Shown: piece after piece, positions 10,383 through 35,962 of the stretch | How the letters are laid out: each line of letters begins with the position of its first letter | How positions within the stretch are numbered: the first letter of the stretch is position 1 | Origin: Myxococcaceae bacterium | GTDB taxonomy: Bacteria > Myxococcota > Myxococcia > Myxococcales > Myxococcaceae | Reading direction: 5' to 3' | Assembly: GCA_019686135.1 (NCBI GenBank) | Contig: JADGHL010000032.1 | Location: 1 to 44,425 of the forward strand | Length of the DNA: 44,425 nt | Notes under the pieces: model-generated | Database searches by the model: none | Seen by the model: the letters and a program-made list of their open reading frames with translations, nothing else | Told to the model about the DNA's origin: nothing | Translations under genes and position numbers: made by a program

Positions 10383-10847
10383 CTACGGCGTCTCCGCGCG
10401 AACGCCGATCGCGAGCTGGCCGAGCCCCGCCTTCTTCGCCAGCTCCATCACCTCCACCACCTTGCCGTGGGGCACGCCCTGATCGGCCTGGACGATCACC
10501 AGCGTCTCGGCGTTGTCGGTCTTCGCCTTCTCGAACGCCTGCTTCAGCTCGTCCATGCTGACCACGTTGCCGGAGAGGACCACCCGGCCGTCCTCCAGGA
10601 TCGCCACCGGGAGATCGGTCCGCGAGGCCATCACGTCCGCCGCGTTGCCTTTGGGCAGGTTCACCTTGATTCCGGATCGCGTGCTGCCCGTGGTGTCCGC
10701 GCGGCGGACGATCACCGTGCTGGTCACCATGAAGATGATGAGCAGCACGAGGAAGATGTCGGTGAGCGGGGTGATGTTGATGTCGGCGAACACGCCCTCC
10801 TCGAGGGAGTCGTCGCCGCCCGTGCCCGGGACCTTGCCCATTGCCAT
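10383..10847 (-). CDS. exbD: ExbD/TolR-type proton-channel subunit
   Basis: A 154-residue protein with a short cytoplasmic N-terminus, one membrane helix (about 26-48) and a periplasmic domain. ADINITPLTDIFLVLLIIFM holds the conserved membrane Asp (D30) that carries protons in ExbD/TolR. With the adjacent ExbB homologue it forms a proton-motive-force motor that energises an envelope process such as TonB-dependent import, Tol or gliding-type transport. No tonB, tolA or receptor gene is adjacent, so the driven process is unknown. It starts 3 bases after the exbB stop. Confidence 0.92.
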   Translation of the reverse strand: MAMGKVPGTGGDDSLEEGVFADINITPLTDIFLVLLIIFMVTSTVIVRRADTTGSTRSGIKVNLPKGNAADVMASRTDLPVAILEDGRVVLSGNVVSMDELKQAFEKAKTDNAETLVIVQADQGVPHGKVVEVMELAKKAGLGQLAIGVRAETP

Positions 10848-10850
10848 CGG

Positions 10851-11564
10851 TCAGCTCGCTCCGGAGGTGGTGGCGGCCAGCGGGGTGGGCGCGGAGGCGC
10901 TGCCCTCGTTGGTGGTCGCCGGCGCGGCGGGGCGTTCGCGCAGAAGCTCCACGAACTCCTCGGCCAGAAGCTTCAGCTCCACCGCCACGCGCGCCAGCCG
11001 TGACTGGAAGTAGTTGTAGAGGACCACCGCCTCGACCGCGACCAGGATGCCCGCGGCGGTGGTGATGAGCGCCTCGGAGATCCCGGTCATCACCGCGGCG
11101 GTGCCGCCGGTACCGCCGGCGCCCACGTCTAGGCCGAGGTCCCGGAAGGACCGCATGATCCCCGCCACCGTGCCGAACAGGCCGACGAACGGGGCGGTGG
11201 CGCCGATGGTGCCGAGGATCCACAGGTTGCGCCGCAGCTTCAGGGCCACCTGGGTGCGTTCGCGCTCCACCGCGGCCTCCACGCCGTCTCCGCCGCGGTT
11301 GCGTTCGAAGCGTTCGAAGCCGGCGATGAAGATGTCGGCCGCCAGCGCATCCGACCGTTCGGCCGCGGTGCGCGCCGCTGCCACATCCCCGCGCAAAAGG
11401 TTCTTCCCCACGGCCTCGCCGAGCATGCGCGCCTGGTCGCTGACGCCCCACAGCGCGATCAGCCGTTCGATCGCCACCCCCAGGGCGACCACCGAGCAGG
11501 CCACGATGATGGCCATCGTGAAGCCGCCGAGCTTCAGATAGTGGATGAGATCGCCGACGTTCAT
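10851..11564 (-). CDS. exbB: ExbB/TolQ/MotA-type proton-channel subunit
   Basis: A 237-residue protein with three membrane helices: one near the N-terminus (FTMAIIVACSVVALGVAIER) and two after the cytoplasmic loop (LGTIGATAPFVGLFGTVAGI and ALITTAAGILVAVEAVVLYN), the MotA/TolQ/ExbB fold in which the conserved Thr and Gly residues line the proton path. The C-terminal 30 residues are Ala/Thr/Pro-rich. ATG 11564 (MNVGDLIHYL) is preferred; a GTG at 11576 is possible and adds four residues. It is the first gene of an exbB-exbD pair and is divergent from the lipoprotein at 11638. Confidence 0.92.
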   Translation of the reverse strand: MNVGDLIHYLKLGGFTMAIIVACSVVALGVAIERLIALWGVSDQARMLGEAVGKNLLRGDVAAARTAAERSDALAADIFIAGFERFERNRGGDGVEAAVERERTQVALKLRRNLWILGTIGATAPFVGLFGTVAGIMRSFRDLGLDVGAGGTGGTAAVMTGISEALITTAAGILVAVEAVVLYNYFQSRLARVAVELKLLAEEFVELLRERPAAPATTNEGSASAPTPLAATTSGAS

Positions 11565-11637
11565 CGCGGGCCACACTATGCGTCACCCTCAGAGCGCGCC
11601 AATGGATCTGCGAGCCGTCTGGTAGATAGCCAGCCCG

Positions 11638-12519
11638 ATGAGCATTCTCGCCTGGCGAGCGCGCCCCTTCGTGTTCCTCGCCGCCGGCGCCCTGGCCGCC
11701 GTGCTGTCCGGTTGTCCACCCAGACGCATCGACTTCGGCCCGCGCGGCCGGATCGACGACCCCGAGGCGCTGCTCGAGCTCGTCGCCGAGACCGAAGCGA
11801 CGGTCATTACCCTCGACGGTGAGGCGAAGGTGCACGTCGACGCGCCGGGCGGGAAGGGCGCGTTCTCCATGTTCATGGCGCTGGTGCGCCCCACGTACGT
11901 CCACCTCGAGCCTCTGGACTTCTTCGGCCGCCCGCAGGGCGTGCTGGTGATCAACGAAGACCACTTCGGGCTGTACCAGGCGCAGGACAACCGCTTCTAC
12001 GAAGGCCCGGCCACCGCGGCGAACGTCGCGCGCTTTCTGCCGCTGGCGCTCCCGCCCGCAGAGCTGGTGCGCGTGATGCTGGGGGCGGTCCCGCGGATCC
12101 CGCACGAGCGCGCCGAGCTCGTCCCCGACGAGCGCTGCGCCTGCTACGTGCTCACGCTGCACCACGGCGCCGTCACCCAGCGCCTCGAGGTGCACCCCAG
12201 CCGGTACCGGGTGCTGAAGAGCGAAGTGACCGGAATGCCCGCGTACGATCTCGAGCTCGGGGACCTCGACACGATCCAGGGCATCAGCTTCCCCAGGCGG
12301 ATCACCCTCCGCGCGCCGGCGGCGCAGGTGGAGGTGTCGCTCAGGTACGCGGACGTCACGCTGAACAAGGCGCCGGATCTGACGATGTTCGACACCTCTG
12401 CGCCCGAGGGCGCGGAGATCGTCCCGCTGGATGCGCAGGGGCGCACCGTCTCGCCCGCGACGCCGGCCCCGGCCGGTCCGCCGCTTATGCCGGATGCCCC
12501 GAACCCGGCGTCGCCCTGA
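11638..12519 (+). CDS. predicted outer-membrane lipoprotein, DUF4292/LolB-like
   Basis: A 293-residue protein with a clear lipoprotein signal (FVFLAAGALAAVLSGC, C26). The mature domain starts with an amphipathic helix (DPEALLELVAETEATVITLD) and continues as an antiparallel beta sheet (GEAKVHVDAPGGKGAFSMFM, PTYVHLEPLDFFGRPQGVLV), the pattern of the LolA/LolB lipoprotein-carrier fold and of DUF4292 proteins. It ends in a Pro/Ala-rich tail. A role in handling lipids or lipoproteins in the envelope is plausible by fold only. Divergent from exbB, tail to tail with the oxidoreductase gene (8-base gap). Confidence 0.75.
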   Translation: MSILAWRARPFVFLAAGALAAVLSGCPPRRIDFGPRGRIDDPEALLELVAETEATVITLDGEAKVHVDAPGGKGAFSMFMALVRPTYVHLEPLDFFGRPQGVLVINEDHFGLYQAQDNRFYEGPATAANVARFLPLALPPAELVRVMLGAVPRIPHERAELVPDERCACYVLTLHHGAVTQRLEVHPSRYRVLKSEVTGMPAYDLELGDLDTIQGISFPRRITLRAPAAQVEVSLRYADVTLNKAPDLTMFDTSAPEGAEIVPLDAQGRTVSPATPAPAGPPLMPDAPNPASP

Positions 12520-12527: not shown

Positions 12528-13904
12528 TCACGCACCCGGCGCGTGGTGCTCGGGACCGGCCGGCGGGGCAGGGTGGGCGATCTGAGAGATCACCGGGTGC
12601 TCGGCGCGCGCCAGGCGCACCGCGAGGTGCTTGCCGAGCGCGATGAGCGACAACGCCGGCGGCAGGCCCCACGGTTCGGGGATCACCGACGCGTCGCAGA
12701 TGTAGAGGTTCTTAAGCTCGGTCTGCAGGTCCGCGTCGACCACCCGGCCGATCGGCGCGGTGCCGCCGGGGTGGGCGGCGAAGGTCCACGAGTGGAAGAT
12801 CTTCCTCGCGCCGGCGTGCGCGAGGATCGCCTTCGCCCGGTCCGTGCCCTCGGCGAGCCTTTGGCGATCCGCTTCGGAGAGCGGCTTGCGCACGGTGCCG
12901 TTGCGGTTGACACGGCCCTTGAGCTCGTCGCGGATCTTCACCAGCACCATCCCGGTGTGGGGCCACGCCGCGAGGCGATCCACGCGGCCCACCTCGCCGG
13001 CGACCAGCGCATACAGCCACGGCGGCAGCGAGAGATCGGCGAGCAGGTAGCCATCGTCCGGGAAGAGGGCGCCCGCCGTCATGGGCAGCTCCTGGCCATG
13101 CGAGGGTCCGGGGAGCGTGCCGGCGACGGCCACCAGCGGATCGCAGAATAACGTCCGCCCCGCCCGGCGCAGCCCGCTGGCCTGGAGGATCACCGGCGTG
13201 CCCAGGCCTCCGGCGGCGAGGACGATCTTCCGCGCGTACACGGCGCGCGCCCGTCCGCGATAGATGACCTCCACGCTCCGCGCCGTGTGGCGCTTCTTGA
13301 AGACGCGCCGCACCCGCGCGTGGGTGATGAGCGTCGCCCCGCGCGCCACCGCTTCGCTGACGAACACGCGCGCGGTCCACTTCGCGTCATAGGTTGGCGC
13401 GCCATAGGTCCCCATCAGCCGTCCGCCCAGGCGGCTTTGGTTGAGGAACTTCGGCAGCGGCCGCCAGTCGAAGCCCAGGTCGGCCGCGCTCTGCAGGATC
13501 CGCCGCGCGGCCGGGCCGAGCTGAGACGGCGGCAGCGGCGCCACATTGAGCTCGCGCTGGGCTTCTGCCGCGTGCTCGCGCAGATCGATCCCGTAGCGAT
13601 CGAACAGCTCGAAGGGCGGATCCCACGCGGTGCCCCACGAGTAGATGCTGCCGCCGCCCACGGTGATCGCCCGGAGGATCGCCAGCGCCCGTTCGGCGAG
13701 GACGAGGCCGCGGCCCGGCATCCACAGCTCGCGCAGCGCCTGCGCCATCGATCCGGTGATCTTCTGCATCCCGCCGCGCTCGAGGATGAGCACGTTCCAG
13801 CCGCGGCGGGCGAGCTCGCGGGCCACCGTGGCGCCGCCGGGGCCGGTGCCCACCACCACGGCGTCGAAGGTCTGGGACAGATCCGGAAGCGGAGCGCGGC
13901 GCAT
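12528..13904 (-). CDS. GMC-type FAD-dependent oxidoreductase
   Basis: A 458-residue flavoprotein. The N-terminus has the FAD dinucleotide site VVVGTGPGGATVARELARRG (GxGxxG) with ILERGG as the second strand, GGGSIYSWG as the substrate/FAD loop, and IVLAAGGLGTPVILQASGL as the GMC ATG-like loop. The C-terminal domain has SWTFAAHPGGTAPIGRVVDA and LYICDASVIPEPWGLPPALS, matching the GMC C-terminal region, where the His of AAHPGG is near the usual catalytic His. It probably oxidises an alcohol (sterol, glucose or choline-like substrate; unknown). The start was taken at the ATG just before the FAD domain; one at 13934 is in frame and neither has a convincing ribosome site. Confidence 0.85.
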   Translation of the reverse strand: MRRAPLPDLSQTFDAVVVGTGPGGATVARELARRGWNVLILERGGMQKITGSMAQALRELWMPGRGLVLAERALAILRAITVGGGSIYSWGTAWDPPFELFDRYGIDLREHAAEAQRELNVAPLPPSQLGPAARRILQSAADLGFDWRPLPKFLNQSRLGGRLMGTYGAPTYDAKWTARVFVSEAVARGATLITHARVRRVFKKRHTARSVEVIYRGRARAVYARKIVLAAGGLGTPVILQASGLRRAGRTLFCDPLVAVAGTLPGPSHGQELPMTAGALFPDDGYLLADLSLPPWLYALVAGEVGRVDRLAAWPHTGMVLVKIRDELKGRVNRNGTVRKPLSEADRQRLAEGTDRAKAILAHAGARKIFHSWTFAAHPGGTAPIGRVVDADLQTELKNLYICDASVIPEPWGLPPALSLIALGKHLAVRLARAEHPVISQIAHPAPPAGPEHHAPGA

Positions 13905-13948
13905 GCCGCAAACGTTCGTCCGCACCCGCGGCATTGCCAGCGGCGATA

Positions 13949-13967
13949 GGGACGACGTCTTCGTCCC
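13949..13967. promoter_or_regulatory. 7-bp stem-loop between divergent genes
   Basis: GGGACGA-CGTCT-TCGTCCC is a perfect 7-bp inverted repeat with a 5-base loop, 45 bases upstream of the oxidoreductase start. It lies in the 215-base divergent gap 13905-14119, where I see no clear promoter. It could be an operator or a leader hairpin. Confidence 0.3.
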
Positions 13968-14119
13968 AGGGCTCGTTCTGCGGGCGGGGTTGCCGCCGCG
14001 ACCGCGCGGACCGTTTGCAGCCATCCCGGGTGGCCGCCCGGCCGTCCCCCCGCCGCGCGTCCGTGGCCTGGTGGTGTCCCCGGCTTTGTGCCCCGCCGCC
14101 GCAAAGGTAGGGTGACCCC

Positions 14120-15868
14120 GTGGTGCGTCCTCTGGCGTTCGTCCTCACCGCGTGCGTGGTCGCCGCGTCAGGCTGCACGTGCGCGGAGAAGACCGCGCCG
14201 CAGACGCCGACGATCCAGGGGCCGTCGCAGGACTGGCTCGACGGAGCGCTGCCGCCGTCCGTGATGGAGGGGACGCCGAAGCAGGGCGGGACGCTCACCA
14301 TCCGGCTGCAGGCCGAACCGAAGATGCTCAACCGTTTGCACGACGCGGGGCAGGACGCGTGGGCGGTGCGGACGATCGTGGGCCCGGTGGTGGAGACCCT
14401 CTGCGAGCTCGACCGGGACACCGCGCCCCGGTACCGCCTCAAGCCAGTGCTCGCCGAGCGCTGGGAGATCTCCGCGGATCGTCGCACCACCACCTTCCAC
14501 CTCCGCCACGGCGTCACCTTCCACGACGGCCAACCGTTCAGCGCGAAGGACGTCAAGGCCGTGCTGGATGCGATCCGCGATCCGAAGCAACCCACCACAC
14601 GGATGCGAGGCCTGCTCGCCGAGCTCGACGGCTACGAAACGCCGGACCCGTGGACGGTGGTGGTCCACTGGAAGCGGCCCGACTTTCTGGCCACGCGGCA
14701 GCTGGCGACGGTCATCCCGATCTTTCCCGCGAGCGCGCTGGAGGGCGACTTGGACACGCTGGCGATCAACCGCGCGCCGGTGGGCACGGGGCCGTTCCGG
14801 TTCGACAAGTGGGAGTCCGGCCGCGCGATCGAACTGGTGCGCAACGAGACCTACTGGGGAAAGAAGGCGCACGTCGATCGGATCGTCTTCCGCATCGTCA
14901 AGGACGGCACCGTGGCCACCCAGATGTTCGAGCGCGGCGCCTTCGATCTGATGACGGCGATCCCGCCGCACGTGTGGCGCGGGCTGGAGGCGGTGAAGGC
15001 GGAGAACGCCTGGGCGTGGCGGGACTACCACCGGATCCGCTTCCCCGAGAACGCCTACAACTGGATCGGCTTCAACCAGGCGCGGCCGCCCTTCGGGGAC
15101 GTCCGCGTGCGCCGCGCGCTCGCGCAGCTCATCCCTTACGACGCAATCGAAGAGGGCATCTACCTCGGCCTCGAGCCCATCACGACCTGCCCGTTCTACG
15201 CCCTGGGCCCTGCGTGCGATCCTGGGCTGGAGGCGCCCGATTCGCCGCAGCGGCTCCGGTACGATCCTGAAGACGCGAAGGCCCTTCTGGACGCCGCCGG
15301 CTGGAAGGACACCGACGGCGACGGCGTGCGCGACCACGATGGCCGGCCGTTCGACCTCACGTTCCTCATCTACGCCTCGTCGGTGAACCTCGGGAAGCTG
15401 GCGCCGGTGCTGCAGGACGAGTGGCGCAAGGCGGGCATCCGGCTGCACGTGGAGAAGGTGGACTGGGCAGTTTTCACCGAACGGCTGCGGACGCACGCGT
15501 TCGACATGGTGTCGCTCGGGTGGTCCGCGCTGGACGCGGAGGACGACCTCTATTTCAACTTCCACTCGTCGCAGGTGAAGGACGGCACCAACTACGTCTC
15601 CTACGTCAACCCTGAGCTCGATCGGCTCCTGGAGGCCGTACGTGGCGAGCACGACGAACAGCGGCGCATCGCGCTCGAGCGGCAGATCCACCGCCTCGTC
15701 TACCGTGACCAGGTCTACCTGTTCCTCGGCCGCCGCAGCGCGCTGGACGCGGCGAAGAAGACGGTCCACGGGCTGCGCCCGGCGATCAACTGGTACCGCC
15801 TCGCCGATCTCTGGCTGGACGCGCCGGCGCCGCATGCGGAGGCGACCACCCGGGCCACGCCGGACTGA
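14120..15868 (+). CDS. oligopeptide/dipeptide ABC transporter, substrate-binding lipoprotein
   Basis: A 582-residue family 5 extracellular solute-binding protein. A lipoprotein signal (MVRPLAFVLTACVVAASGC) anchors it outside the inner membrane. The family core is evident: GGTLTIRLQAEPKMLNRL, VTFHDGQPFSAKDVKAVLDA, NRAPVGTGPFRFDKWESG and GFNQARPPFGDVRVRRAL. It carries a Ca-binding-like insert DTDGDGVRDHDG near residue 395, seen in some relatives. The GTG start (a second GTG follows) has AGGTAGGG upstream. It heads an importer operon with two permeases directly downstream and two ATPases after a two-gene interruption. The substrate is probably a short peptide, but nickel, sugars or other ligands occur in the family. 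Confidence 0.93.
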   Translation: MVRPLAFVLTACVVAASGCTCAEKTAPQTPTIQGPSQDWLDGALPPSVMEGTPKQGGTLTIRLQAEPKMLNRLHDAGQDAWAVRTIVGPVVETLCELDRDTAPRYRLKPVLAERWEISADRRTTTFHLRHGVTFHDGQPFSAKDVKAVLDAIRDPKQPTTRMRGLLAELDGYETPDPWTVVVHWKRPDFLATRQLATVIPIFPASALEGDLDTLAINRAPVGTGPFRFDKWESGRAIELVRNETYWGKKAHVDRIVFRIVKDGTVATQMFERGAFDLMTAIPPHVWRGLEAVKAENAWAWRDYHRIRFPENAYNWIGFNQARPPFGDVRVRRALAQLIPYDAIEEGIYLGLEPITTCPFYALGPACDPGLEAPDSPQRLRYDPEDAKALLDAAGWKDTDGDGVRDHDGRPFDLTFLIYASSVNLGKLAPVLQDEWRKAGIRLHVEKVDWAVFTERLRTHAFDMVSLGWSALDAEDDLYFNFHSSQVKDGTNYVSYVNPELDRLLEAVRGEHDEQRRIALERQIHRLVYRDQVYLFLGRRSALDAAKKTVHGLRPAINWYRLADLWLDAPAPHAEATTRATPD

Positions 15869-15870: not shown

Positions 15871-16857
15871 ATGGGCCGCTACGTCCTGCGCCGCGCGCTG
15901 TTGATGATCCCCACCTTCTTCGGGATCACCCTGCTCACCTTCGCGGTGGCGCAGCTGGCCCCCGGCGATCCGCTCCAGCTCTCGGCGGAAGCGCCCCGAG
16001 CGGGGCAGACGGCTGCGCTCGAGGCGCTGCGGCATCAGCGCGGGCTCGACCGGCCGCTGTGGGTCCAGTACGGGCGCTGGGTCGGACGGGTGCTTTCGCT
16101 CGACTTCGGGCGCTCACTGGAGGACGGACGTCCGGTGCTGGAGAAGGTGGGCGAGGCGCTCCCGCGGACGCTTCTGCTCACCACCCTGGCGCTGTTCCTC
16201 AGCTACCTCATCGCCGTTCCCCTGGGCGCCTGGGCGGCGGTCAGGCGGGACACCTTCGCCGAGCGCGCGGTGACGGTGGTGCTCTTCGTCCTGTACTCGA
16301 TGCCCTCCTTCTGGGTGGCCATAACGCTGTTGTTGGTGCTCTCCGGCGGCCGCGGGTGGGCGGTGTTTCCGCTCCAGGGGCTGACCTCGCCCGGCTTCGA
16401 CCAGCTCTCGCCCGCGGCGAAGGTGGCGGACCTTCTGTGGCATGTGGCGCTGCCCGTGGCGGTGCTCACCTATGGATCGCTGGCCGTGCTCTCCCGGTAC
16501 ATGCGCGGCGCGATGCTGGAGACGCTGCGCAGCGACTTCATCCGCACCGCCCGGGCGAAGGGGCTCGCCGAACGCTCGGTGGTGTTCCGGCACGCGCTGC
16601 GCAACTCGTTGATTCCGATCGTCACGCTGCTCGGGCTCACGCTGCCAGCGCTGGTGGGGGGCAGCGTGATCGTCGAACGCATCTTCGGGATCCCCGGAAT
16701 GGGCGAGCTCGCGTTCGAGTCGATCCTCAACCGCGACTACCCGGTGGTGATGGGCGTCACCACGCTCGTGGCGCTCTTTACCTTGGCGGCGACGCTCTTG
16801 TCGGACGTTCTGACCGCCGCGGTGGATCCGCGCATCGACCTGGAGCGCGCCGGATGA
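15871..16857 (+). CDS. ABC transporter permease, DppB/OppB family
   Basis: A 328-residue inner-membrane protein with six predicted helices. The N-terminus (YVLRRALLMIPTFFGITLLT and APGDP) is diagnostic of DppB/OppB, and the EAA loop (RTARAKGLAERSVVFRHALR) that docks the ATPase is present, as is GSVIVERIFGIPGMG. It starts two bases after the binding-protein stop. It forms the translocation pore with the next gene. Confidence 0.95.
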   Translation: MGRYVLRRALLMIPTFFGITLLTFAVAQLAPGDPLQLSAEAPRAGQTAALEALRHQRGLDRPLWVQYGRWVGRVLSLDFGRSLEDGRPVLEKVGEALPRTLLLTTLALFLSYLIAVPLGAWAAVRRDTFAERAVTVVLFVLYSMPSFWVAITLLLVLSGGRGWAVFPLQGLTSPGFDQLSPAAKVADLLWHVALPVAVLTYGSLAVLSRYMRGAMLETLRSDFIRTARAKGLAERSVVFRHALRNSLIPIVTLLGLTLPALVGGSVIVERIFGIPGMGELAFESILNRDYPVVMGVTTLVALFTLAATLLSDVLTAAVDPRIDLERAG

Positions 16858-17822
16858 GCGGCTGGGGACGGTTCCGTCGGCGCCGCCTGGCGCTGATCGC
16901 GCTGGTGCTCCTGGGCGCCTTCGCCCTGGTCGCGCTGTGCGCGGATCTGATCGCGTCCGACCTGCCGATCGCCGTCCGCGTGGAGGGGCACACGTACGTT
17001 CTTCCCGCGAGGACGCGGCCGCCGGCACTGGCCCACGAGGACATGGCCTCGCTGCGCGCGCGCGCAGAGTGGCTCATCCCACCGCTCTTCGAGCGCGGGC
17101 CCGATCAGCCTCACCTCGACGCGGTCCTCCATCCACCCGGGGCCGACGCGCCGCTTGGCACCGACGAGCTGGGGCGCGACGTGCTGGCGCGCCTCGTCCA
17201 CGGCGCGCGGTTGAGCCTGGTGATCGGGCTGTTGTCGGTCGGGTTGTACGTGTTGATCGGCGTCGTGCTCGGTGCGCTCGCAGGCTGGTTCGGCGGCGTG
17301 GTGGACACCATCGTCTCGCGCGTCACCGAGGTGATGCTCGCCTTCCCGACCTTCTTTCTGGTGCTGGCGATCCTCGGAGTGATGCGCGTCGAGTCGATCG
17401 TCCCGGTGATGGTGGTGATCGGCCTGACCCGCTGGACGGACGTGTCGCGGCTGGTGCGCGGCGAGGTGCTGCGGCTGAAGACCGAGGACTATGTGCAGGC
17501 CAGCCGCGCGCTCGGAGCGCCGCCGATGTGGGTGATCGCCCGCCACCTTCTGCCCAACGCGCTCGGGCCGGTGCTGGTGAACGCCACCTTCGGGATCGCC
17601 GGAGCGATCCTCATCGAAACCGCGCTGTCGTTCCTCGGGTTCGGCGTGCCGCCGCCGCAGGCCTCCTGGGGTGAGCTGTTGACCCAGGCACACCGCTACG
17701 TGACCTGGCCCGGCGCCTGGTGGCTGACTCTTTTTCCGGGCATGGCGATCTTCTTCACTGTCACCGCGCTCAACCTCGTCGGCGAAGGACTGAGAGACGC
17801 GTTCGACCCGCGCCTGCGCTAG
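16854..17822 (+). CDS. ABC transporter permease, DppC/OppC family
   Basis: A 322-residue inner-membrane protein starting in an ATGA overlap with the previous stop. After a first helix (LALIALVLLGAFALVALCAD) comes an about 90-residue periplasmic loop, then PLGTDELGRDVLARLVHGAR, the DppC/OppC signature, the EAA motif (YVQASRALGAPPMWVIARHL) and EGLRDAFDPRLR at the end. The longer first loop resembles the OppC type that contacts the binding protein. The cognate ATPases lie at 19913 and 20953. Confidence 0.95.
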   Translation: MSGWGRFRRRRLALIALVLLGAFALVALCADLIASDLPIAVRVEGHTYVLPARTRPPALAHEDMASLRARAEWLIPPLFERGPDQPHLDAVLHPPGADAPLGTDELGRDVLARLVHGARLSLVIGLLSVGLYVLIGVVLGALAGWFGGVVDTIVSRVTEVMLAFPTFFLVLAILGVMRVESIVPVMVVIGLTRWTDVSRLVRGEVLRLKTEDYVQASRALGAPPMWVIARHLLPNALGPVLVNATFGIAGAILIETALSFLGFGVPPPQASWGELLTQAHRYVTWPGAWWLTLFPGMAIFFTVTALNLVGEGLRDAFDPRLR

Positions 17823-17849: not shown

Positions 17850-18626
17850 ATGGCAACCATCAAGCTCGGCGATCTGCTCATCAAGGCGAACGTGCTTCAG
17901 GAGGGCCAGCTCAAAGCAGCACTGGCGGAACAACAGAAGTGGGGTGGGCGGCTCGGCGAGATCCTCGTTCGGATGAACCTGATCACCGAAGAGGTCCTGG
18001 TCAAAGCGCTGTCCAGGCAGTTGGGGATCCCCGCGGTGAATCTGGACGCGGTGCAGGGGATCCCGCCGCACGTGAAGGCGAAGCTGCCGGTGGAGATGGC
18101 ACGCGATCTGGTGGCGGTGCCCATCCAGCTCCGCGACGACGGCAAGACGCTCGTGGTGGCGATGGCCGAGCCCCAGAACGTCGAGACGGTGGACATGATC
18201 CGCGCGCGCGCCAACACGCGCGTGATGACCCAGGTCGCCGGGCGGACGGCGATCATGCGCGCCATCGCCCGCTTCTACGAGGGCGAGGCGGACGTCTCCG
18301 ACTTCGAAGGGTCCTTCAAGGTCGTCGACTCGCAGGGCCGCACGGTGGTCAAGAGCCTCAAGGAGATCGAGGCGCAGGCCGGTGCTGCCGTCGCCTCGGC
18401 GGCTGCCGCTCCTGCGTCGCCGCCGCCCGTCGCCTCGCGCGGGCCGGTGTCGCTGAGCGACGTGCCGTCCGTCGGAAAGCGGCCCGCGGAGAACCCGGTG
18501 GAGATCCTGCGCGCGGTGGAGGACGTGCAGCGCAAGGAGGTGGCGGCCATCAAGGCGATGGTCGAGCTTCTGATCGAAAAAGGCGTCTTCTCCCGCGAGG
18601 AGTACCTCGCCAAGGTCAGGCGGTAG
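17850..18626 (+). CDS. stand-alone MshEN-type (GspE/PilB N-terminal) domain protein
   Basis: A 258-residue soluble protein. Residues 5-57 contain two tandem 24-residue motifs of the type [KR]LGxxLxxxxxxxxxxLxxALxxQ (K5 to Q28, R34 to Q57), the cyclic di-GMP-binding motif of MshEN domains; Asn replaces the usual Gly at motif position 10 in both. The rest to about 150 is the GspE_N subdomain (VPIQLRDDGKTLVVAMAEPQ, VDMIRARANTRVMTQVAG). After an Ala/Pro linker, a helical tail (VEILRAVEDVQRKEVAAIKA, then LIEKGVFSREEYLAKVRR) resembles the end of the next gene. No Walker A, no ATPase domain: this is not a pilus motor but a probable nucleotide-sensing adaptor. It sits inside the peptide-importer gene run. 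Confidence 0.82.
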   Translation: MATIKLGDLLIKANVLQEGQLKAALAEQQKWGGRLGEILVRMNLITEEVLVKALSRQLGIPAVNLDAVQGIPPHVKAKLPVEMARDLVAVPIQLRDDGKTLVVAMAEPQNVETVDMIRARANTRVMTQVAGRTAIMRAIARFYEGEADVSDFEGSFKVVDSQGRTVVKSLKEIEAQAGAAVASAAAAPASPPPVASRGPVSLSDVPSVGKRPAENPVEILRAVEDVQRKEVAAIKAMVELLIEKGVFSREEYLAKVRR

Positions 18627-18636
18627 CGGGCGCGCC

Positions 18637-19848
18637 ATGGGCAAGAAGATCGGTGAGCTGCTGATTGAGGCAGGGGTCGCCACGCCCGCGGACCTGGAGG
18701 CGGCGCTGATCGCTCAGCGCGCGAACCCCACCGCGCGGCTGGGGCAGTTGCTCGTGGGGATGAACCGGGGCGTGACCTGGCAGCACGTGGCGCGTGCCCT
18801 GGCGCAGCAGTACGAGCTGCCCTTCATCGAGCTGCCGCAGATCCCGGCCTCGGTGTCCTCGCTGGTGCCGGTGGAGTTCCAGACCGAGCACCGCATCGTC
18901 CCCTTCCAGGTGGAGCGCGACGGCAAGGTGGAGCGCCTCCACCTGGCGATCGCGGATCCCACCAACATGGAGATGGTGGACGAGCTCCGCTTCCAGCTCG
19001 GCAAGCCGGTCCGGATCTTCGTCGCGGCGGAGAACGACATCGACGCGGTGCTGTCCGCGCTGGGCGGCGAGGCGATCGCGGAGCTCGAAGCGGTCGAGGT
19101 GGAGATGGACGACGACGACGGCTCCGACGTGCCGATCGCCGAGGCTCCGCCGGGCGCCGGCGACTGGAGCGATGCGCCTCCGCCGGTGCCGGCGGCCGCG
19201 CTCCCGCCGGAATGGGACCTCTTCGACGCTGGGCCCGCCGCACCGGGTGGCGCGGTGCCGCCGAGCAGCCCGGCCGCTGCGAGCGGAGCGGCGCCGAAAA
19301 CCTCTCCGATGGGCGCTGCGCCCGCGTCGAACGGAGCATCCGCGCCGAGCGTCGCGCCCGCACCTCACGCGGCACCGCCACCGAACGGGCGGCATGCTCC
19401 GGCTGCCGCGCCCATGCCACCCGCGGCGGATCTCGACGCGCTGCTCGGGCAGGCGAGCGCCGCGGCGTCGCCGGTCCAGGACGTCCAGCCGTTGACGCGG
19501 CCCGTGCTTCCACCGCCGCCGGGGCAGCCCAGGCCCGGGACGGCGCAGGTGGCGGAGGTGCTCCGGTTCGAGCCGCCACCGAAAAAGGCCCCGCCCGCGC
19601 CGCCGCCGTCCAACCTCGCGCCGAGTCCGGCTCCGACACCGGCGCCGGCTCCGGCTCCTGCGCTCGACTTCTCCGAAGAGGATCTGGCCATCCTGGAGAA
19701 CCTCGAACGCATGGCGCACGGGGAGGAGCCGACGCTCGAGTCCGCGAAGGTGCGGCCCGCGCAGATGGTAGCGTCTCTCATCCGTCTCCTGATGCGGAAG
19801 GGCGTCATCGCCGAGACGGAGTTCCTCGAAGAGCTCGGCCGGAAGTAG
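18637..19848 (+). CDS. second MshEN-type domain protein with long Pro/Ala linker
   Basis: A 403-residue paralogue of the previous gene, 10 bases downstream. Residues 4-27 ([20 protein letters not shown]) fit the MshEN motif including Gly13; the second motif (R34 on, [12 protein letters not shown]) is less regular, with one extra residue. The GspE_N subdomain follows ([32 protein letters not shown]). Residues 150-340 are disordered Pro/Ala-rich sequence with an acidic start (VEMDDDDG). The C-terminal 60 residues ([20 protein letters not shown], then [20 protein letters not shown]) match the tail of the first paralogue, suggesting a shared docking module. No ATPase motifs. Cyclic di-GMP binding is predicted, not shown. 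Confidence 0.8.
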
Positions 19849-19912: not shown

Positions 19913-20952
19913 ATGAGCGAGCCGCTCCTCGACATCCGCGACCTGCAGACGCAGTTCAAGACCGAAGAGGGGTCGTTCCTCGCGGTGGACCACGTCTCGT
20001 TCTCCATCCCGCCGGCGGGCACGCTGGGGGTGGTCGGCGAGTCCGGCTGCGGGAAGTCGGTCACCGCGCTCAGCGTGATGCGGCTGGTGGCGGATCCGCC
20101 GGGGCGGATCGTGGGCGGGAGCATCGTCTACCGCGGCACGGATCTGCTGAAGCTCTCCGAAGAGGAGATGCGGAAGATCCGCGGCAACCGGATCTCGATG
20201 ATCTTCCAGGAGCCGATGACCTCGCTGAACCCGGTCTTCACGGTCGGCGAGCAGATCGCCGAAGCGGTCCGGCTCCATCAGCACCTCGACCGCCGCGCCG
20301 CGCGCGCGAAGGCGATCGAAATGCTGCGCAAGGTGGGGATCCCGGCCCCGGAGGCGCGCGTCGACAACTACCCGCACCAGATGTCCGGCGGGATGCGCCA
20401 GCGCGTGATGATCGCGATGGCGCTCTCGTGCAACCCGGACCTTCTGATCGCAGACGAGCCCACCACCGCGCTGGACGTGACCATCCAAGCGCAGATCCTC
20501 GACCTCATCCGCACGCTCCAGAAGGAGCGCCAGATGGCGGTGATGTTGATCACCCACGACCTCGGCGTGGTCGCCGAGACCTGCGACGAGGTGGTGGTGA
20601 TGTACGCGGGCCGCGTGGTGGAGCGCGCTCCGGTGCGGCAGCTGTTCAAGGCGCCGTCGCACCCGTACACGGCGGGGTTGTTGCGGTCGATCCCGTCCTT
20701 CGAGGACGGCAGCGGCCGGGGCGCGCGCGAACGGCTGCGCACCATCCCGGGCATCGTCCCGTCCCTGCGGGCGCTCCCCGCGGGCTGCCGCTTCCGCGAT
20801 CGCTGCGACCGTGCCCTCGAGGTCTGCGCGCGGATCGACCCGCCTCTCCAACAGAAGCGCGACGGCCAGTGGGCCGCCTGTCACAACCCGGTGCCCGTGC
20901 GGGACGGTGCGCACGAGGCCACCCTCACCCCGCCCGCTGCGGCACCCCACGC

Positions 20953-20956
<4 letters not shown>
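19913..20956 (+). CDS. peptide ABC transporter ATP-binding protein, OppD/DppD family
   Basis: A 347-residue ATPase with Walker [10 protein letters not shown]-loop [11 protein letters not shown], signature [10 protein letters not shown], Walker [13 protein letters not shown] and H-loop ITHDLGVV. The C-terminal oligopeptide/dipeptide extension has [12 protein letters not shown] and four Cys ([15 protein letters not shown]), the spacing that binds an iron-sulfur cluster in DppD homologues. It pairs with the next gene to drive the two permeases at 15871 and 16854, although two MshEN genes lie between. Confidence 0.95.
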
Positions 20957-21969
<1,013 letters not shown>

Positions 21970-21971: not shown

Positions 21972-22391
21972 GTGTCCTCCCCACCGTTCTGGTTGAGCCA
22001 CCACCCCGAGGCGGAGCTCGCCCGCACCTACCGCCTGGGTGGCGTGCACGTGTGCGCGCGCTGCCTGGGCACGTATCCGGTTCTCTTCTCCGCGATCGCC
22101 CTGCAGATCGCCGTACGCGCGCCGCTTCGGTGGAGGTGGGACGGACTGGTGGCGGTGGGGCTGTTGCTGCCGGCGTTGCTCGATTGGGCGTATGGCAGGT
22201 TCCGTCCGCTCGCTGGCTCCAACGCTTGGCGGACCGGAACCGGTGTGCTCTTGGGCCTTGCGCTCGGCCGGACCCTCTACGTCCATTTTCGTAGCCCGCT
22301 TCCGCTGTGGCTTCTCGTCCAGGCCGCGCTCGTGACAGCGGTGGCGGTGCCTGTCATCGTGCTGCGGCTGAGGCGGCAGGGAAGGGGATAG
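21972..22391 (+). CDS. DUF2085-like membrane protein
   Basis: A 139-residue protein starting at GTG 21972, two bases after the OppF-like stop. It opens with SSPPFWLSHHPEAELARTYR and VHVCARCLGTYPVLF; the His pair and CxxC knuckle at the membrane interface are the hallmark of DUF2085 proteins. Three to four membrane helices follow (LVAVGLLLPALLDWAYG, GTGVLLGLALGRTLYV, LLVQAALVTAVAVPVIVL), with RPLAGSNAWRTGTG matching the family glycine-rich loop. Function unknown. Position suggests cotranscription with the importer, but a role in transport is not supported. Confidence 0.8.
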   Translation: MSSPPFWLSHHPEAELARTYRLGGVHVCARCLGTYPVLFSAIALQIAVRAPLRWRWDGLVAVGLLLPALLDWAYGRFRPLAGSNAWRTGTGVLLGLALGRTLYVHFRSPLPLWLLVQAALVTAVAVPVIVLRLRRQGRG

Positions 22392-22455: not shown

Positions 22456-23088
22456 GTGTTGAAGACGGATGTGACAGACGAGGAGCTGATGCTCTCGTTC
22501 CGCGCCGGCGACGCGCGCGCGTTCGAGACGCTCGTCGCCCGCCACCGGACGCCGGTCTTCAACTTCATCCTCCGACTCACGGGCCAGCGCGCCCGCGCCG
22601 AGGACCTGCTTCAGGAGACGTGGTTGAAGGTGGTGCGGGGCGCACAGGACTGGCAGCCGAAGGCCCGGTTCACCACCTGGGTCTACACGATCGCGAGGAA
22701 CCTCTGCGTGGACAGCGCGCGCAAAGAGAGCTACCGCAAGGCGGACTCGCTCGACGCGCCGGTGGCGGCGGGCGGCGACGGCGATGGCCGCGCGCTCGGC
22801 GAAGCGCTCCCCGACATCGGCGGAACCTCTCCCGACCGCGGCGCGTACAACCGGCGGCTGCGACCGCTGATCGAAGCGGCGCTCCAATCTTTGCCGGAGG
22901 AACAGCGGGAGGTGTTCCTGCTGCGCGAATACAGCGGGATCCCGTTCAAGGAGATCGCAGATGTGACCGGCGTCCCGGAGAACACGGTGAAGAGCCGGAT
23001 GCGGTACGCCCTCGAGGGCCTGCGCCGGAAGCTGGCGGAGCTCGGGGTGGACGGAGACATGGCCGAGGAGAGGACGGCACTGGGATGA
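22456..23088 (+). CDS. ECF (RpoE-type) RNA polymerase sigma factor
   Basis: A 210-residue sigma-70 family protein with only regions 2 and 4. Region 2: FETLVARHRTPVFNFILRLT, RAEDLLQETWLKVVRG and FTTWVYTIARNLCVDSARKE. Region 4: LPEEQREVFLLREYSGIPFK and EIADVTGVPENTVKSRMRYA, the helix-turn-helix that reads the -35 element. A linker of about 45 residues between them is Gly/Asp-rich and longer than usual. It starts GTG-TTG with a strong AGGGGG site and overlaps the anti-sigma gene by ATGA, so the pair is translated together. What it regulates is unknown; the pilus operon directly downstream is a candidate. Confidence 0.94.
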   Translation: MLKTDVTDEELMLSFRAGDARAFETLVARHRTPVFNFILRLTGQRARAEDLLQETWLKVVRGAQDWQPKARFTTWVYTIARNLCVDSARKESYRKADSLDAPVAAGGDGDGRALGEALPDIGGTSPDRGAYNRRLRPLIEAALQSLPEEQREVFLLREYSGIPFKEIADVTGVPENTVKSRMRYALEGLRRKLAELGVDGDMAEERTALG

Positions 23089-24488
23089 GCGCGCCAGCGA
23101 CACACGTGGACGATCTGCTCCTCGACTTCGCGTACGGCGAGCTCTCCGAGCGCGAGGCGAAGGCCGTGCAGGCGCACCTGTCGTCGTGCGCTCAGTGCCA
23201 GGCCTCGCTGGACGAGATCCAGGGCGTGCGCCGAGTCATGGCGAAGCTGCCGCCTGCGGAGGCCCCGAAGGACGGGCTCGACTCGCTGTTGGCCTACGCC
23301 GAACAGGCCGCGCGGCGGGTCCAGGCCGGGCCTGCTCCGAAGAAGGCGTGGTGGCGCGCGCTGATCCTCCCATTGGGTGGGGTCACCGCGGCGGCGATCT
23401 TCTTCATCGTCGGCCAGAAGGTGACGAAGGACGAGTCGCTCCGGGAGGCTGCGCACCATGCCGCGGTGGCGAAGGTCTCCGGCGAAACCGCCGACGCCCT
23501 CGCGCCCGCACCGCCGCCTGTGGCGCCTTCGCCCGAGCCCACCGTGCCCGCCGAGAGTGCGGCGAAGGACGAGGCTTTCGCCGCGGTGCCGAAGGACGTT
23601 GCCGCCGCTGAAAGAACGCGGCCGGACGCGAAGGTGTCGATGGCGGGGGCGCCAAAGGGGCGCGTGGCCGAATCGACGCTGGAGGTGCCGAAGAAGAAGG
23701 CGGCGCCGTCGCCATCGATGGACCACCACGTCGCAGGGTTCGGCCCGCCCGGCGGATCTGGATCCATCGGTCTCGCCCAGGCGGGCGATGGATCGGCGGC
23801 GCTCGGCCGAGGTGCGGCTGCACACAGCCGTTCGGCGGGTGGCGCCGGGTTCGACGCCGAGGTGCCCGTGCGAGCCACTGCGCGGATGAAGGCCGACGTG
23901 CCGGCCGTCGCGGACAAGGATGCGAAGGCGGAAGCGATGCCGGCTCCGACGCCCGCCGTGACCGGCACCGCTTCTGCGCCCCGGACGGTGGCCATGGACG
24001 GCCTCCAGGTCGAAGACGCGCTGCCTGCGGCTGCGTCCGAGGCCGAGGTGGACGATCGCGCTGTCCGCGAAGCGCGCGAGGAGCGCAAACCGGCCCTTCG
24101 CGATGCGGAGGCGAAGGCGTTGCTGGATCAGGCGCTGGCGGCGAACCGTGCCCGGAGGTTCGCGGAGGCCATCCGTGCGTGCCAGGCCGTGCTGGCGCTC
24201 TCGGTCGGCGACGCCCGGATCCGGCAGGGCGCGCTCAACGCGCTGTGCGAGGCGCAGTCCGAGCTGTCGGGCGATCTCTCCGCGTGCGAGGTGCTCGTGC
24301 GCGACTATCCCTCCTCGGGCGCGGCGAGCGTCGCGCGGAACCGGATCGCTTCCTTCCGCGCCCGGACCGGGCCCGCCGCCACCGGCGCGCCGGCGCCGCG
24401 GCCGCCGTACGCCACCGAGAAGCGGGCGGCCCAACCTGCGCGCGCCGCGCCGGAAGATGCAGCGGACCCGACGGCCCCGCGGCAATGA
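23085..24488 (+). CDS. membrane anti-sigma factor with zinc-binding domain and TPR-like periplasmic tail
   Basis: A 467-residue protein. Residues 1-50 form a ZAS-type anti-sigma domain (LLLDFAYGELSEREAKAVQA, then H31-x3-C35-x2-C38), which holds the preceding sigma factor. One membrane helix lies at 91-110 (RALILPLGGVTAAAIFFIVG). The periplasmic part has a low-complexity Ala/Pro/Lys region (about 120-330) and ends in a TPR-like helical domain (AKALLDQALAANRARRFAEA, IRACQAVLAL, NALCEAQSELSGDLSACEVL). The size of the outer part suggests it senses something in the envelope or assembles with other proteins. It starts in the ATGA of the sigma stop. The TPR assignment is by pattern. Confidence 0.88.
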   Translation: MSAPATHVDDLLLDFAYGELSEREAKAVQAHLSSCAQCQASLDEIQGVRRVMAKLPPAEAPKDGLDSLLAYAEQAARRVQAGPAPKKAWWRALILPLGGVTAAAIFFIVGQKVTKDESLREAAHHAAVAKVSGETADALAPAPPPVAPSPEPTVPAESAAKDEAFAAVPKDVAAAERTRPDAKVSMAGAPKGRVAESTLEVPKKKAAPSPSMDHHVAGFGPPGGSGSIGLAQAGDGSAALGRGAAAHSRSAGGAGFDAEVPVRATARMKADVPAVADKDAKAEAMPAPTPAVTGTASAPRTVAMDGLQVEDALPAAASEAEVDDRAVREAREERKPALRDAEAKALLDQALAANRARRFAEAIRACQAVLALSVGDARIRQGALNALCEAQSELSGDLSACEVLVRDYPSSGAASVARNRIASFRARTGPAATGAPAPRPPYATEKRAAQPARAAPEDAADPTAPRQ

Positions 24489-24590: not shown

Positions 24591-24643
24591 CACGCGGCCA
24601 CGTGACCGATGAACACCCATCCGCATCCGCCGATAATCCTGGC

Positions 24644-25639
24644 ATGGTGAGGTGTCGTACATCGGGGCGGGAGTCCGGGCAGGCGGCCGTTGAGGCGGCG
24701 ATCGTCATGCCGATGATGGTGTTTCTGGTCCTCGGCATCCTCCAGCTCACGATGCTGCAGCAGGCCCGGATCATGACGGAGTACGCGGCCTACAACGCCG
24801 CGCGCGCGGGCATCGTCTGGAACGGGAACAACGAGCGCATGCACGACGCGGCGATCGTCTCGCTGTTGCCCACCATGGGCCGCACCGATTCGCTGGTCAA
24901 ACTGGGTGAGACCTGGGCGTTGCACCAGCTCTACGACACCGCGCTCCGGAAGCTGTCGTGGGGCAGCCCGGTGCCGCAGTCGATCAACGGCTCCAACCTG
25001 CTCGGCTTCATCCGCGTCGACACCATCAACCCCGCGCTCTACACGCCGATCAACTCGATCTGGAAGTTGCCGCCGATTCAGGGAAACACCGGCGTCAACT
25101 GGAAGGAGCTGGACTTCGACGGCCCAGACTCCTACCCGGAGGTGCCGGACCTGGCGCGGCGGATCGGCAAGTTCTTCAAGATCACGATGCCGGACAGCAA
25201 CGAGGAGGAGTACCGCCGCTCGACGGTGCTCACCATCCGCGTCCGCTACTGGTACGAGATGCGCGTTCCGTTCGCGAACTGGATGATCTTCCTGTGCTGG
25301 TACGCCGCGAACGCGGGCGTGAGCCTGAGCGGCGCCTTCGGCAGCGAGCAGATCAACTACTCGCCGGTGGGCGGCGGCGCGAGCATCGTCGGCGGCAACG
25401 GCAACAAGGGCGCGCTCCCGGTGATGGCCACCGGCATCCGCCACAACAAGGGCTACGCCACCGCGTACCAGCCCGAGATGCTGGTGCTCTGGGGGCTGGC
25501 CACCGGGCAGATTCCGCTCATCTCCAGCCTCGTCGGCAAGCGCTACTTCATCCCGCTGACTGCGACCTACAGCATGCGGATGCAGTCGAACTTCCACCGC
25601 AAGTGGATCATGCACCTCAACCCCAGCTGGGGACTCTAA
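24644..25639 (+). CDS. TadE-like pseudopilin with large C-terminal domain
   Basis: A 331-residue protein with a type IVb prepilin-like N-terminus: basic leader MVRCRTSGRESG, cleavage predicted after G12, then QAAVEAAIVMPMMVFLVLGI with Glu at +5, the residue that aligns pilin subunits, and a hydrophobic helix to about residue 35. The remaining 290 residues are a soluble domain without a recognised family; a second hydrophobic stretch (FANWMIFLCWYAANAGVSL) lies near 215. TadE-family pseudopilins are usually about 150-200 residues, so this one is large. The ATG at 24644 is chosen to give a short leader; a GTG at 24602 is also in frame. First gene of the first pilus operon, 4 bases before the next. 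Confidence 0.82.
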   Translation: MVRCRTSGRESGQAAVEAAIVMPMMVFLVLGILQLTMLQQARIMTEYAAYNAARAGIVWNGNNERMHDAAIVSLLPTMGRTDSLVKLGETWALHQLYDTALRKLSWGSPVPQSINGSNLLGFIRVDTINPALYTPINSIWKLPPIQGNTGVNWKELDFDGPDSYPEVPDLARRIGKFFKITMPDSNEEEYRRSTVLTIRVRYWYEMRVPFANWMIFLCWYAANAGVSLSGAFGSEQINYSPVGGGASIVGGNGNKGALPVMATGIRHNKGYATAYQPEMLVLWGLATGQIPLISSLVGKRYFIPLTATYSMRMQSNFHRKWIMHLNPSWGL

Positions 25640-25643: not shown

Positions 25644-27737
25644 ATGTTGATTTCATCCCTCCGACGCAGCGTCCAGCGCCAGGAAGGGCAGGCCCTCGTG
25701 CTCGCCTGCCTGTGCGTGCTCGCGCTCTCGATCGCGGTGATCACCACCGTCAACCTGGGCCACACCGTTCACGAACGCATCCGGCTGCAGAACAACGCCG
25801 ACGCCGCCGCCTACTCGATGGCCGCCATGGAGGCGCGCGCGTTCAACTTCTACGCGTTCACCAACCGCGCCGAGGCCTCCCACTACGTCTCCGCGATGCA
25901 GTGGCAGTCGATGCTCTCGTTCTTCTTCTTCATGGAGGCGTTCTTCACCGACCTCTTTGGAATCCTGAAGACCTTCAACCCCTGCGGCGGAAAGCGGAAC
26001 TGGTTCTGGACGATCGTCTGTCCCATCCTCGAAGCCATTCCCTACGTCGGCGCGGTGATACGGATCGTCAATCAGATCTTCAACGCGGTGGAGCAGGCGC
26101 TCAAAGCGCTCCAGCGAGGAGTCTTCAAACCCGCCAACGTCGTCGACAACTTCATAGGCACCAAGGTGATCCCCGCGCACCGGATTCTCAACCAGGTGCT
26201 CTCATCCGCGGCGGAGACGGTGATGTACGCGTCGCTCTCTCACGTCTCGCAGATGTCGAAGGACGTGATCGTCGACAACGACTCCAACATCAACCCGACG
26301 TGGGGCGCGGCGATCGCCGGCGTTCTGTCCGGGTGCATGTACGACCGGGCGCACAACCGGGACGTGCTCGGGTCGCCGCTTTCGCCGAAGAACCCGCTCA
26401 GCGTGCTCCCGGTCAACGACACGCGCGAAGACAGCAAGCAGAACCGCGCCAAGCGGACGATGGCGCAGATCGCCAACGCCACGCGCTACGGCTGTGAAGG
26501 CGGCGACAACGGCGGCGCGGGGGCCTGCCCAGAGAAGTTCGTCACCAACCGCGGCCTCGGATCGATCCTCGGGTTCCTCCCCGGCGGCATTCAAAGGTTC
26601 ATGGACGGGTTCCCCAAGTGGGGGCAGACCAAGCTGCTCGGGTTCAGCAAGGCGGACGGGCGCAACACTGCGCCGAACGGCGCCAAGAACTACATCCACC
26701 GCAGCGCCGCCAACCTCCCGCCCAACAGCAACTGGGGCCCGCTCGCCTCCGGCGACAACATGGGGTCGGACGACCTCTACGAGCTCAAGCTGGGGCCGGA
26801 GAAGCTGCTCGGCCTCGTCGACAACCCGTTCGCCTGCAAGGACAACGACAACCCCTACGAGTGCTGGGGCGATCCGCGCATCACCGACAGCAACCGGGGC
26901 GACCAGAAGTTCCGCAACGCGCTCAAGACCAGCATCTGGGCGCTCAACGACCAGGAGCAGGCCTCGCGGATCAAGCGCGGGGGCATCCACTGGCGGCTGC
27001 AGTACGACCGGCCGCACACCTCCTGCCGGAACTTCAACTGCGGCTTCTACCCGCCCTCGGGTGGCTTCGGAAACCCGGTGCGGGACATGGGCCTGAGCAT
27101 GGTCAAGGCCTTCAAGGTCTGCCCGCCCCAGCTCATCTGCATTCCCTTCCAGCCGGGCTTGACCATCTACAAGTACGTCGCCAACGTCCGCCCCGTGCAG
27201 GACGGGAACCACCCGTGGCAGGGCATCGTCCGCTTCCCGCACTTCGAACCGGGGGAGTACTCGCGCAAGTGCCCGGTGCCGGGAAATGCCGCGCTCAACA
27301 ACCCCGCCCGGCGTGATCAGGAGTTCAACCAGCCCTCCACCTGGGTGCTGCTCAACAAGTCGCCCGATCAGCTCAAGAACCTCAACGCGGATCAGAACGG
27401 CGTGACCCGGGCCGGCCCGGCGCAGCTGAACGACTCGGCGAAGATCAAGTTCGCGTTCGGCGCCGGCAACGGCACCGAGCTGGTGCTCGACGACACGCGC
27501 AAGAAGTTCGGCGTGGGGATCTTCTCCACCGAGGGTCTCAACGCCATCTCGCGCGGGCAGGCCTACTACCACCGTCCCGGGAATTGGGCGGAGCAGCCCA
27601 ACTTCTTCAACCCGTTCTGGCGGCCGCGGCTGGCGTCCGTGTACCAGGGCTCGCGGAACGTCGAGCTGCTCGACGACATCATCAACCGGCTGCCCGGACC
27701 GGTGGCCGGCATCCCGCAGAAGATCATCACCCACTAG
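25644..27737 (+). CDS. large TadG-like pilus-associated protein, Cys-rich
   Basis: A 697-residue protein. The N-terminus resembles the TadE/G-like family: short leader MLISSLRRSVQRQEG, then QALVLACLCVLALSIAVITT, and after the helix RIRLQNNADAAAYSMAAMEA, matching the LQNxADAAA motif of TadG proteins. There is no Glu at +5 (Leu instead). The large body (about 600 residues) has at least a dozen Cys (for example FNPCGG, SGCMYD, RYGCEGG, SCRNFNCGF, VCPPQLIC), suggesting disulfide bonds after export. No von Willebrand motif (DxSxS) was seen, unlike many TadG proteins. It could be a tip or cell-contact protein of the pilus; this is inference. Start ATG 4 bases after the TadE-like gene. Confidence 0.83.
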   Translation: MLISSLRRSVQRQEGQALVLACLCVLALSIAVITTVNLGHTVHERIRLQNNADAAAYSMAAMEARAFNFYAFTNRAEASHYVSAMQWQSMLSFFFFMEAFFTDLFGILKTFNPCGGKRNWFWTIVCPILEAIPYVGAVIRIVNQIFNAVEQALKALQRGVFKPANVVDNFIGTKVIPAHRILNQVLSSAAETVMYASLSHVSQMSKDVIVDNDSNINPTWGAAIAGVLSGCMYDRAHNRDVLGSPLSPKNPLSVLPVNDTREDSKQNRAKRTMAQIANATRYGCEGGDNGGAGACPEKFVTNRGLGSILGFLPGGIQRFMDGFPKWGQTKLLGFSKADGRNTAPNGAKNYIHRSAANLPPNSNWGPLASGDNMGSDDLYELKLGPEKLLGLVDNPFACKDNDNPYECWGDPRITDSNRGDQKFRNALKTSIWALNDQEQASRIKRGGIHWRLQYDRPHTSCRNFNCGFYPPSGGFGNPVRDMGLSMVKAFKVCPPQLICIPFQPGLTIYKYVANVRPVQDGNHPWQGIVRFPHFEPGEYSRKCPVPGNAALNNPARRDQEFNQPSTWVLLNKSPDQLKNLNADQNGVTRAGPAQLNDSAKIKFAFGAGNGTELVLDDTRKKFGVGIFSTEGLNAISRGQAYYHRPGNWAEQPNFFNPFWRPRLASVYQGSRNVELLDDIINRLPGPVAGIPQKIITH

Positions 27738-27751
27738 GGAGAGCGCTGGCT

Positions 27752-30524: not shown

Positions 30525-30753
30525 GAGCGTGAAGCGGCGGCACAAGCGCCGGCGCGGGCAGGCGATGCTCGAGTACTCGATGCTCAACTGGGTGCTGGTG
30601 GTCGCCCTGGTGCTCGGGATGAGCGTGCGGATGATCCCCGCGCCGGACGGCAGCGGCGGCGGACGCCCGATGAACGTGATCGAGCTCTTCCTCCGGGCGT
30701 ACCAGGTCTATTACGACTCCTTCTACTTCGTGCTGAACCTGCCGTTCCCGTGA
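30514..30753 (+). CDS. Flp-like type IVb pilin candidate (79 residues)
   Basis: A very small protein with a strongly basic leader (MRTESVKRRHKRRRG, cut after G15), then QAMLEYSMLNWVLVVALVLG. The Glu at +5 and Tyr at +6 match the G-xxxx-EY hallmark of Flp/type IVb prepilins. About 64 mature residues is close to Flp size. It ends in MNVIELFLRAYQVYYDSFYF, an amphipathic aromatic helix. The ATG at 30514 is favoured over a GTG at 30505 because AGGTGA sits 5 bases upstream. It overlaps the preceding gene by 11 bases and the next by GTGA. Likely the major filament subunit of this locus, or else a TadE/F-like minor pilin. Confidence 0.75.
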   Translation: MRTESVKRRHKRRRGQAMLEYSMLNWVLVVALVLGMSVRMIPAPDGSGGGRPMNVIELFLRAYQVYYDSFYFVLNLPFP

Positions 30754-35932: not shown

Positions 35933-35962
35933 TTCTTCCTCTCACTCTCGCGCGGGACCCCT

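Follow-up and report, generated by a model that had tools for sequence, protein, structure and literature searches.

The usual place of the MshEN domain is the N-terminal end of ATPases that serve type IV pili or type II secretion. The closest described system is V. cholerae MshE, whose MshEN domain has been crystallized with cyclic di-GMP (c-di-GMP; PDB 5htl) and carries tandem 24-residue motifs with a spacer of about five residues (PMC5013675). ATPase-free MshEN proteins are also an already known kind; for example, M. xanthus FrgA and P. aeruginosa PA3740 join the domain to uncharacterised regions without a motor ATPase, and the residue changes found in XpsE were those that abolished c-di-GMP binding (PMC5013675). 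M. xanthus has 17-22 MshEN genes, most of which are uncharacterised (PMC8844925, PMC5013675). The Tad-like Kil system of M. xanthus is a contact-dependent prey-killing machine (PMC8460266, PMC12075869), and its authors proposed that conserved genes of the kil clusters encode a signalling cascade acting upstream of it (PMC8460266). There is no mention of c-di-GMP in PMC8460266 or PMC12075869; in the open-access literature, no paper joining c-di-GMP, the Kil system, Myxococcus and predation was found, and none on MXAN_4662-4668. The Opp/Dpp peptide ABC importers (NCBIfam Opp4B/Opp4C, PRK11308) are composed of an SBP_bac_5 binding protein, two BPD permeases and two ATPases with oligo_HPY domains.

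The window (the whole stretch of 44,425 nucleotides that was analysed) contains two adjacent MshEN genes on the plus strand, both with ATG starts. MshEN protein 1 ("MshA-like", 258 aa) is encoded at 17850-18626, 27 nt after the OppC gene, and MshEN protein 2 ("MshB-like", 403 aa) at 18637-19848, ending 64 nt before the OppD gene. The original prediction described them as an ATPase-less MshEN pair within a peptide-importer operon, with a common C-terminal helical tail, and the profile and structure searches bear this out. The Pfam MshEN profile PF05157 (curated cut-off 23.1 bits) matched protein 1 with E 8.7e-14 and 51.7 bits, and protein 2 with E 2.8e-18 and 66.1 bits; the NCBIfam profile NF053729 ("MshE-related c-di-GMP domain", cut-off 38 bits) scored 65.0 and 42.0 bits, respectively. 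The profile search returned no T2SSE/ATPase domain for either protein, in agreement with the predicted absence of Walker motifs, so neither belongs to the PilB/GspE/MshE motor ATPases.

In protein 1 the MshEN domain (residues 5-146) is followed by a disordered linker (about 148-212) and C-terminal helices (216-243 and 249-257); in protein 2 the domain (4-146) is followed by a Pro/Ala-rich linker and helices 347-360, 374-387 and 393-402. The AlphaFold2 models gave pLDDT values of about 90-97 for both MshEN cores and disordered linkers, and both models end in a short helical hairpin. Foldseek placed 5htl among the top matches, with rmsd of 2.1 Å for protein 1 and 2.9 Å for protein 2 over about 140 columns; PilF GSPII domains were also among them. 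The predicted folds of both proteins are thus those of MshEN domains. Compared with V. cholerae MshE, the pair lacks the ATPase domain and has a linker and C-terminal hairpin instead, the genes are paired, and motif position 10 is often not Gly. Compared with FrgA and PA3740, by description and not by sequence, the proteins differ in being paired and in being syntenic with importer and Tad genes. A SHOCT assignment for the hairpin was dropped, as all matches were sub-threshold. The protein-2 orthologues range from 254 to about 1190 aa, and the length differences lie almost entirely in the low-complexity linker.

Motif analysis, using the definition in PMC5013675, located two 24-residue c-di-GMP-type motifs in protein 1 (17862-18020; residues 5-28 and 34-57, five-residue spacer). 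This stretch reads KLGDLLIKANVLQEGQLKAALAEQ-QKWGG-RLGEILVRMNLITEEVLVKALSRQ and follows the tandem RLGxx..LxxxLxxQ pattern fully, with Lys/Arg at position 1. The two motifs of protein 2 (18646-18810; residues 4-27 and 34-58) follow it with some departures: motif-1 position 2 is Ile instead of Leu, the spacer has six residues, the motif-2 hairpin contains one extra residue, and motif-2 position 17 is Val. The tandem motifs claimed for each protein are therefore present, complete in the first and modified in the second. Of 74 distinct protein-1 orthologues, nearly all retain R/K-L-G and L-L-Q in the two motifs (Gly 3, Leu 21 and Gln 24 in 70-73 of the 74). The protein-2 orthologues are looser, with Leu/Ile at position 2 and Leu/Val/Ile at position 17; the motif-1 Gln is replaced in 5 of 28, the losses falling in some Myxococcaceae.

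The Asn at motif position 10 had been singled out as a departure from the usual Gly. This does not hold for the family: most of the 74 protein-1 sequences have Asn, Lys, Ser or Glu there (at motif 1, Asn in 35 and Gly in only 15), and the alignment also showed Asn in PilB proteins, including the PilB of the host genome itself. The Asn is thus no oddity, and as a family-wide trait it was rejected as a sign of lost binding. The MshEN heads might nevertheless have lost c-di-GMP binding and, like that of XpsE, keep a purely structural role as protein-interaction modules; this could be argued from the scarcity of Gly at position 10 in protein 1, from the Ile, Val and inserted residue of protein 2, and from the missing motif-1 Gln in some of its orthologues. 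Such a loss seems improbable, however, given the near invariance of the other protein-1 motif residues and the Asn shared with PilB proteins; and none of the XpsE-type changes occurs in the pair. Judged by these residues, protein 1 likely binds c-di-GMP, and protein 2 plausibly does so too.

The genes around the pair encode one Opp-type ABC importer. Upstream are the peptide-binding protein (SBP_bac_5, 14120-15868, with an N-terminal lipobox), the OppB-type permease (15871-16857) and the OppC-type permease (16857-17822), all assigned by profile matches; downstream are the OppD-type (19913-20956) and OppF-type (20956-21969) ATPases, with intact Walker A/B and signature motifs. All are on the plus strand with gaps of at most 64 nt, so the pair does separate the permease from the ATPase genes of one importer, as had been proposed. 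The other Opp operons of the host genome and its relatives resemble the Opp/Dpp systems in being uninterrupted; whereas the window set is interrupted by the two MshEN genes. A promoter and terminator scan gave signals no better than chance. Further upstream lies a gene for a putative DUF4292 lipoprotein (11638-12519, plus strand); few upstream neighbours of the pair are as widely conserved. Between this DUF4292 gene and the binding-protein gene, the minus strand carries a gene for a GMC-type oxidoreductase (12528-14024), which was not seen there in the relatives examined; an ExbB/ExbD pair (10383-11576, minus strand) upstream of DUF4292 is conserved in f1.

Conservation was surveyed by single-genome and phylum searches, named genome contigs and gene surroundings, with the families given by code (f1, which is Myxococcaceae/Archangiaceae judged by how its relatives are named, is the family of the window genome). 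The MshEN pair is conserved across Myxococcota. The insertion also recurs in relatives: the order permeases, pair, ATPases was found in f1, f4, f8 and f10, in f2 as far as the contig end, and, with only one MshEN gene, in genome G040 of f6. In Myxococcus, Corallococcus, Archangium, Hyalangium, Pyxidicoccus and their kin (f1), and in f3, f9, f19 and f24, the pair is followed by OppD-OppF; whereas the SBP, OppB and OppC genes are absent from the locus. OppD comes directly after the pair in f1, f3, f4, f8, f9, f10, f19 and f24; in f29 it follows the second MshEN gene, and in f6 the single one. About ten families in total have OppD-OppF downstream of the pair, and a strong OppD orthologue on the contig of the pair is always within 6 kb downstream (46 of 46 genomes). 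In MAG.188, a complete importer is immediately followed by one lone MshEN gene.

The pair and the importer are not gained and lost together. No importer genes are near the pair in f7, f12, f13 and f22, nor near the single MshEN gene of the f6 genome G046. Conversely, G008 (L165, G008:C15) has DUF4292-OppD-OppF-DUF2085-sigma-TadE-TadG in order, without the MshEN pair and without permease genes; and one f1 contig (L129) has the SBP, OppB and OppC genes and the pair, with no OppD or OppF before the sigma gene. On the protein-1 tree, at least six changes are needed to account for the presence of the permease genes, and six for that of OppDF. The pair was absent from the f5 genomes tested, which also had no close OppB, OppD or CpaB matches at the thresholds used. 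The proposal of a c-di-GMP sensor pair tied to peptide uptake therefore stands in part. The OppD-OppF adjacency and the recurrent split importer support a tie; however, the tie is not exclusive, since the pair persists without SBP-OppB-OppC in the cultured Myxococcaceae or without the whole importer in four families, and G008 retains OppD-OppF without the pair.

These exceptions bear on another explanation, in which the pair functions on its own with partners encoded elsewhere, as other myxobacterial MshEN proteins do; the genes for the importer, DUF4292, the sigma factor and Tad would then be long-standing neighbours or belong to a common regulon, without being direct partners. Every neighbour is individually dispensable, and in f12 and f22 both OppDF and the Tad genes are missing from the surroundings of the pair. 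The host genome contains 14 MshEN regions, several of them ATPase-free with a similar tail and amid unrelated genes; the many MshEN genes of M. xanthus are consistent with this. On the other hand, the adjacency to OppDF or Tad genes recurs across Myxococcota classes, beyond the informal expectation for neutral neighbours. An independent role is possible, and ranks a close third among the readings of the pair.

The original prediction also offered adaptors for other machinery, such as a pilus motor; the Tad cluster downstream of OppF was absent from it, and this Tad/Kil context is the most useful addition to the earlier finding. The array runs beyond OppF: every gene between 14120 and 37717 has the same orientation, and no gap exceeds about 180 nt. 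It continues with a DUF2085 membrane protein (21972-22391), an ECF-type sigma factor (22456-23088, profile match) and a zf-HC2 protein (23085-24488), probably an anti-sigma factor. Then follow a TadE-like minor pilin (24602-25639) at the KilM position of M. xanthus kil cluster II, a Tad/TadG-like minor pilin (25644-27737) at the KilN position, and a TadE-like protein (27584-28936, true start probably later than 27584) at the KilL position. An 82-aa Flp-pilin-like protein (30505-30753, no Pfam match) is at the KilK position and CpaB/RcpC (31699-32517) at the KilB position, followed by TadB-like (32583-33428) and TadC-like (33439-34341) T2SSF platform proteins and two FHA-domain proteins (34445-37717), of which the second (35963-37717) contains TPR and the first spans 34445-35932. 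The conserved myxobacterial locus thus sets peptide import beside a Tad/Kil pilus.

Region 24602-37717 matches kil cluster II (MXAN_4648-4661) and, judged by gene content and order, would be its counterpart. If the Flp-like gene is taken as KilK (MXAN_4655), the count along the cluster assigns KilL, KilN and KilM (4658-4660) to the three Tad minor-pilin genes; by such counting, the MshEN pair would be expected slightly past MXAN_4661, at a distance of a few genes. The window cluster shares the TadE/TadG minor pilins, Flp, CpaB, TadB, TadC and FHA proteins with the M. xanthus Kil system, with the FHA-ATPase encoded separately (PMC8460266, PMC12075869). The only FHA-T2SSE (Kil-type) ATPase of the host genome is on another contig (G000:C225, L240), which suggests that the split kil arrangement probably holds there too. 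The published kil cluster II is delimited near the Tad genes; whereas the window array reaches on to the pair and the importer. In Archangium-type genomes (L219 of G007, L115), the TadE-TadG-...-Flp block runs in the opposite direction to CpaB-TadB-TadC.

Because the array continues into this cluster, the pilus-adaptor alternative gains weight. The pair might be a c-di-GMP sensor that is separate from the machine it serves, the Tad/Kil prey-killing pilus, and that controls its assembly or activity in trans: the FHA domain of the Kil-type ATPase would stand where MshEN normally sits, and the pair would supply the missing input. The sole FHA-T2SSE ATPase of the host indeed has no MshEN domain. 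In 55 of the 56 genomes with both on one contig, including those of f7 and f13, CpaB follows the pair on the same strand at a distance of 2.5-14.5 kb. Tad genes are linked to the pair in f1, f3, f4, f7, f8 and f13 (another class of Myxococcota), and to the single gene of G046 in f6; f7, f13 and G046 have them without any importer. However, the pair is not confined to genomes with Tad genes, as no CpaB match at E 1e-25 was found in the pair-bearing genomes of f12 (G061), f19, f22 and f24. CpaB is elsewhere in the genome in f9 and in G040 of f6, several families have CpaB but no pair at the thresholds used, and in G008 Tad genes occur in the absence of the pair. Control of the Tad/Kil pilus is possible, in second place among the readings. 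For the activation of Kil by prey contact, the likely c-di-GMP receptors in the same array provide a testable candidate input.

Overall, the most likely reading of the gene and protein comparisons is a pair of c-di-GMP adaptors whose target is a machine encoded nearby, either OppDF or Kil/Tad. If one target must be named, OppD-OppF, encoded directly after the pair, would tentatively be the first choice. The proteins would be cytoplasmic c-di-GMP receptors and act in trans as adaptors, in which the MshEN head senses the nucleotide, the linker is flexible and the C-terminal helical hairpin serves for docking or oligomerisation. Binding of c-di-GMP may alter the engagement of OppDF by the hairpin and so gate ATP-driven peptide import, possibly extending to permeases encoded elsewhere without their own ATPases. 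This choice is based on the retained site residues without XpsE-type losses, and on OppDF being nearer to the pair than the Tad genes and linked in more families; the lone MshEN gene after the importer of MAG.188 is also consistent with it. Against it are the families that keep the MshEN gene(s) without OppDF, the OppDF of G008 without the pair, and the host paralogues with a similar hairpin near unrelated genes. A coupled feeding module, in which the pair switches both Kil/Tad killing and OppDF prey-peptide uptake under coordination by c-di-GMP, is unlikely. The pair, which is present in experimentally tractable Myxococcus strains, is nevertheless a candidate c-di-GMP input to the Kil machine, the importer or both; if so, trans-acting MshEN proteins might link c-di-GMP to Tad pili or peptide importers.

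The pair and OppDF stay together after the loss of SBP-OppB-OppC, and four genomes whose pair locus has OppDF only (L266, L268, L271, L273) possess separate SBP-OppB-OppC sets without OppD or OppF nearby. The OppDF beside the pair could therefore serve these sets in trans, which further favours OppDF as the target. The distance comparisons among 24 f1 genomes, which ignore kinship, were a mixed and weak test. The protein-2 hairpin evolves faster where OppDF does, in one clade only, which is in favour of OppDF; whereas the MshEN heads show no such acceleration, and the pair distances agree slightly better with CpaB/TadB than with OppD. Because these tests are weak, and because families occur with either, both or neither machine, the OppDF, Kil/Tad and independent readings were rated nearly equal.

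The OppD and OppF of one lineage (L046, L048-L050, L056, L058, L253) are only about 33-47% identical to those of the window, with Walker A intact, and those of the lineage without permease genes about 66-78%. Degeneration of OppD/OppF as the cause of the divergence in Archangiaceae MAGs was ruled out by the presence of Walker A. The apparent lack of any permease for OppDF in Archangium/Corallococcus-type genomes is partly explained by the separate ATPase-less sets. Another SBP-OppB-OppC set without adjacent ATPase genes is located at L169 (G000:C8).
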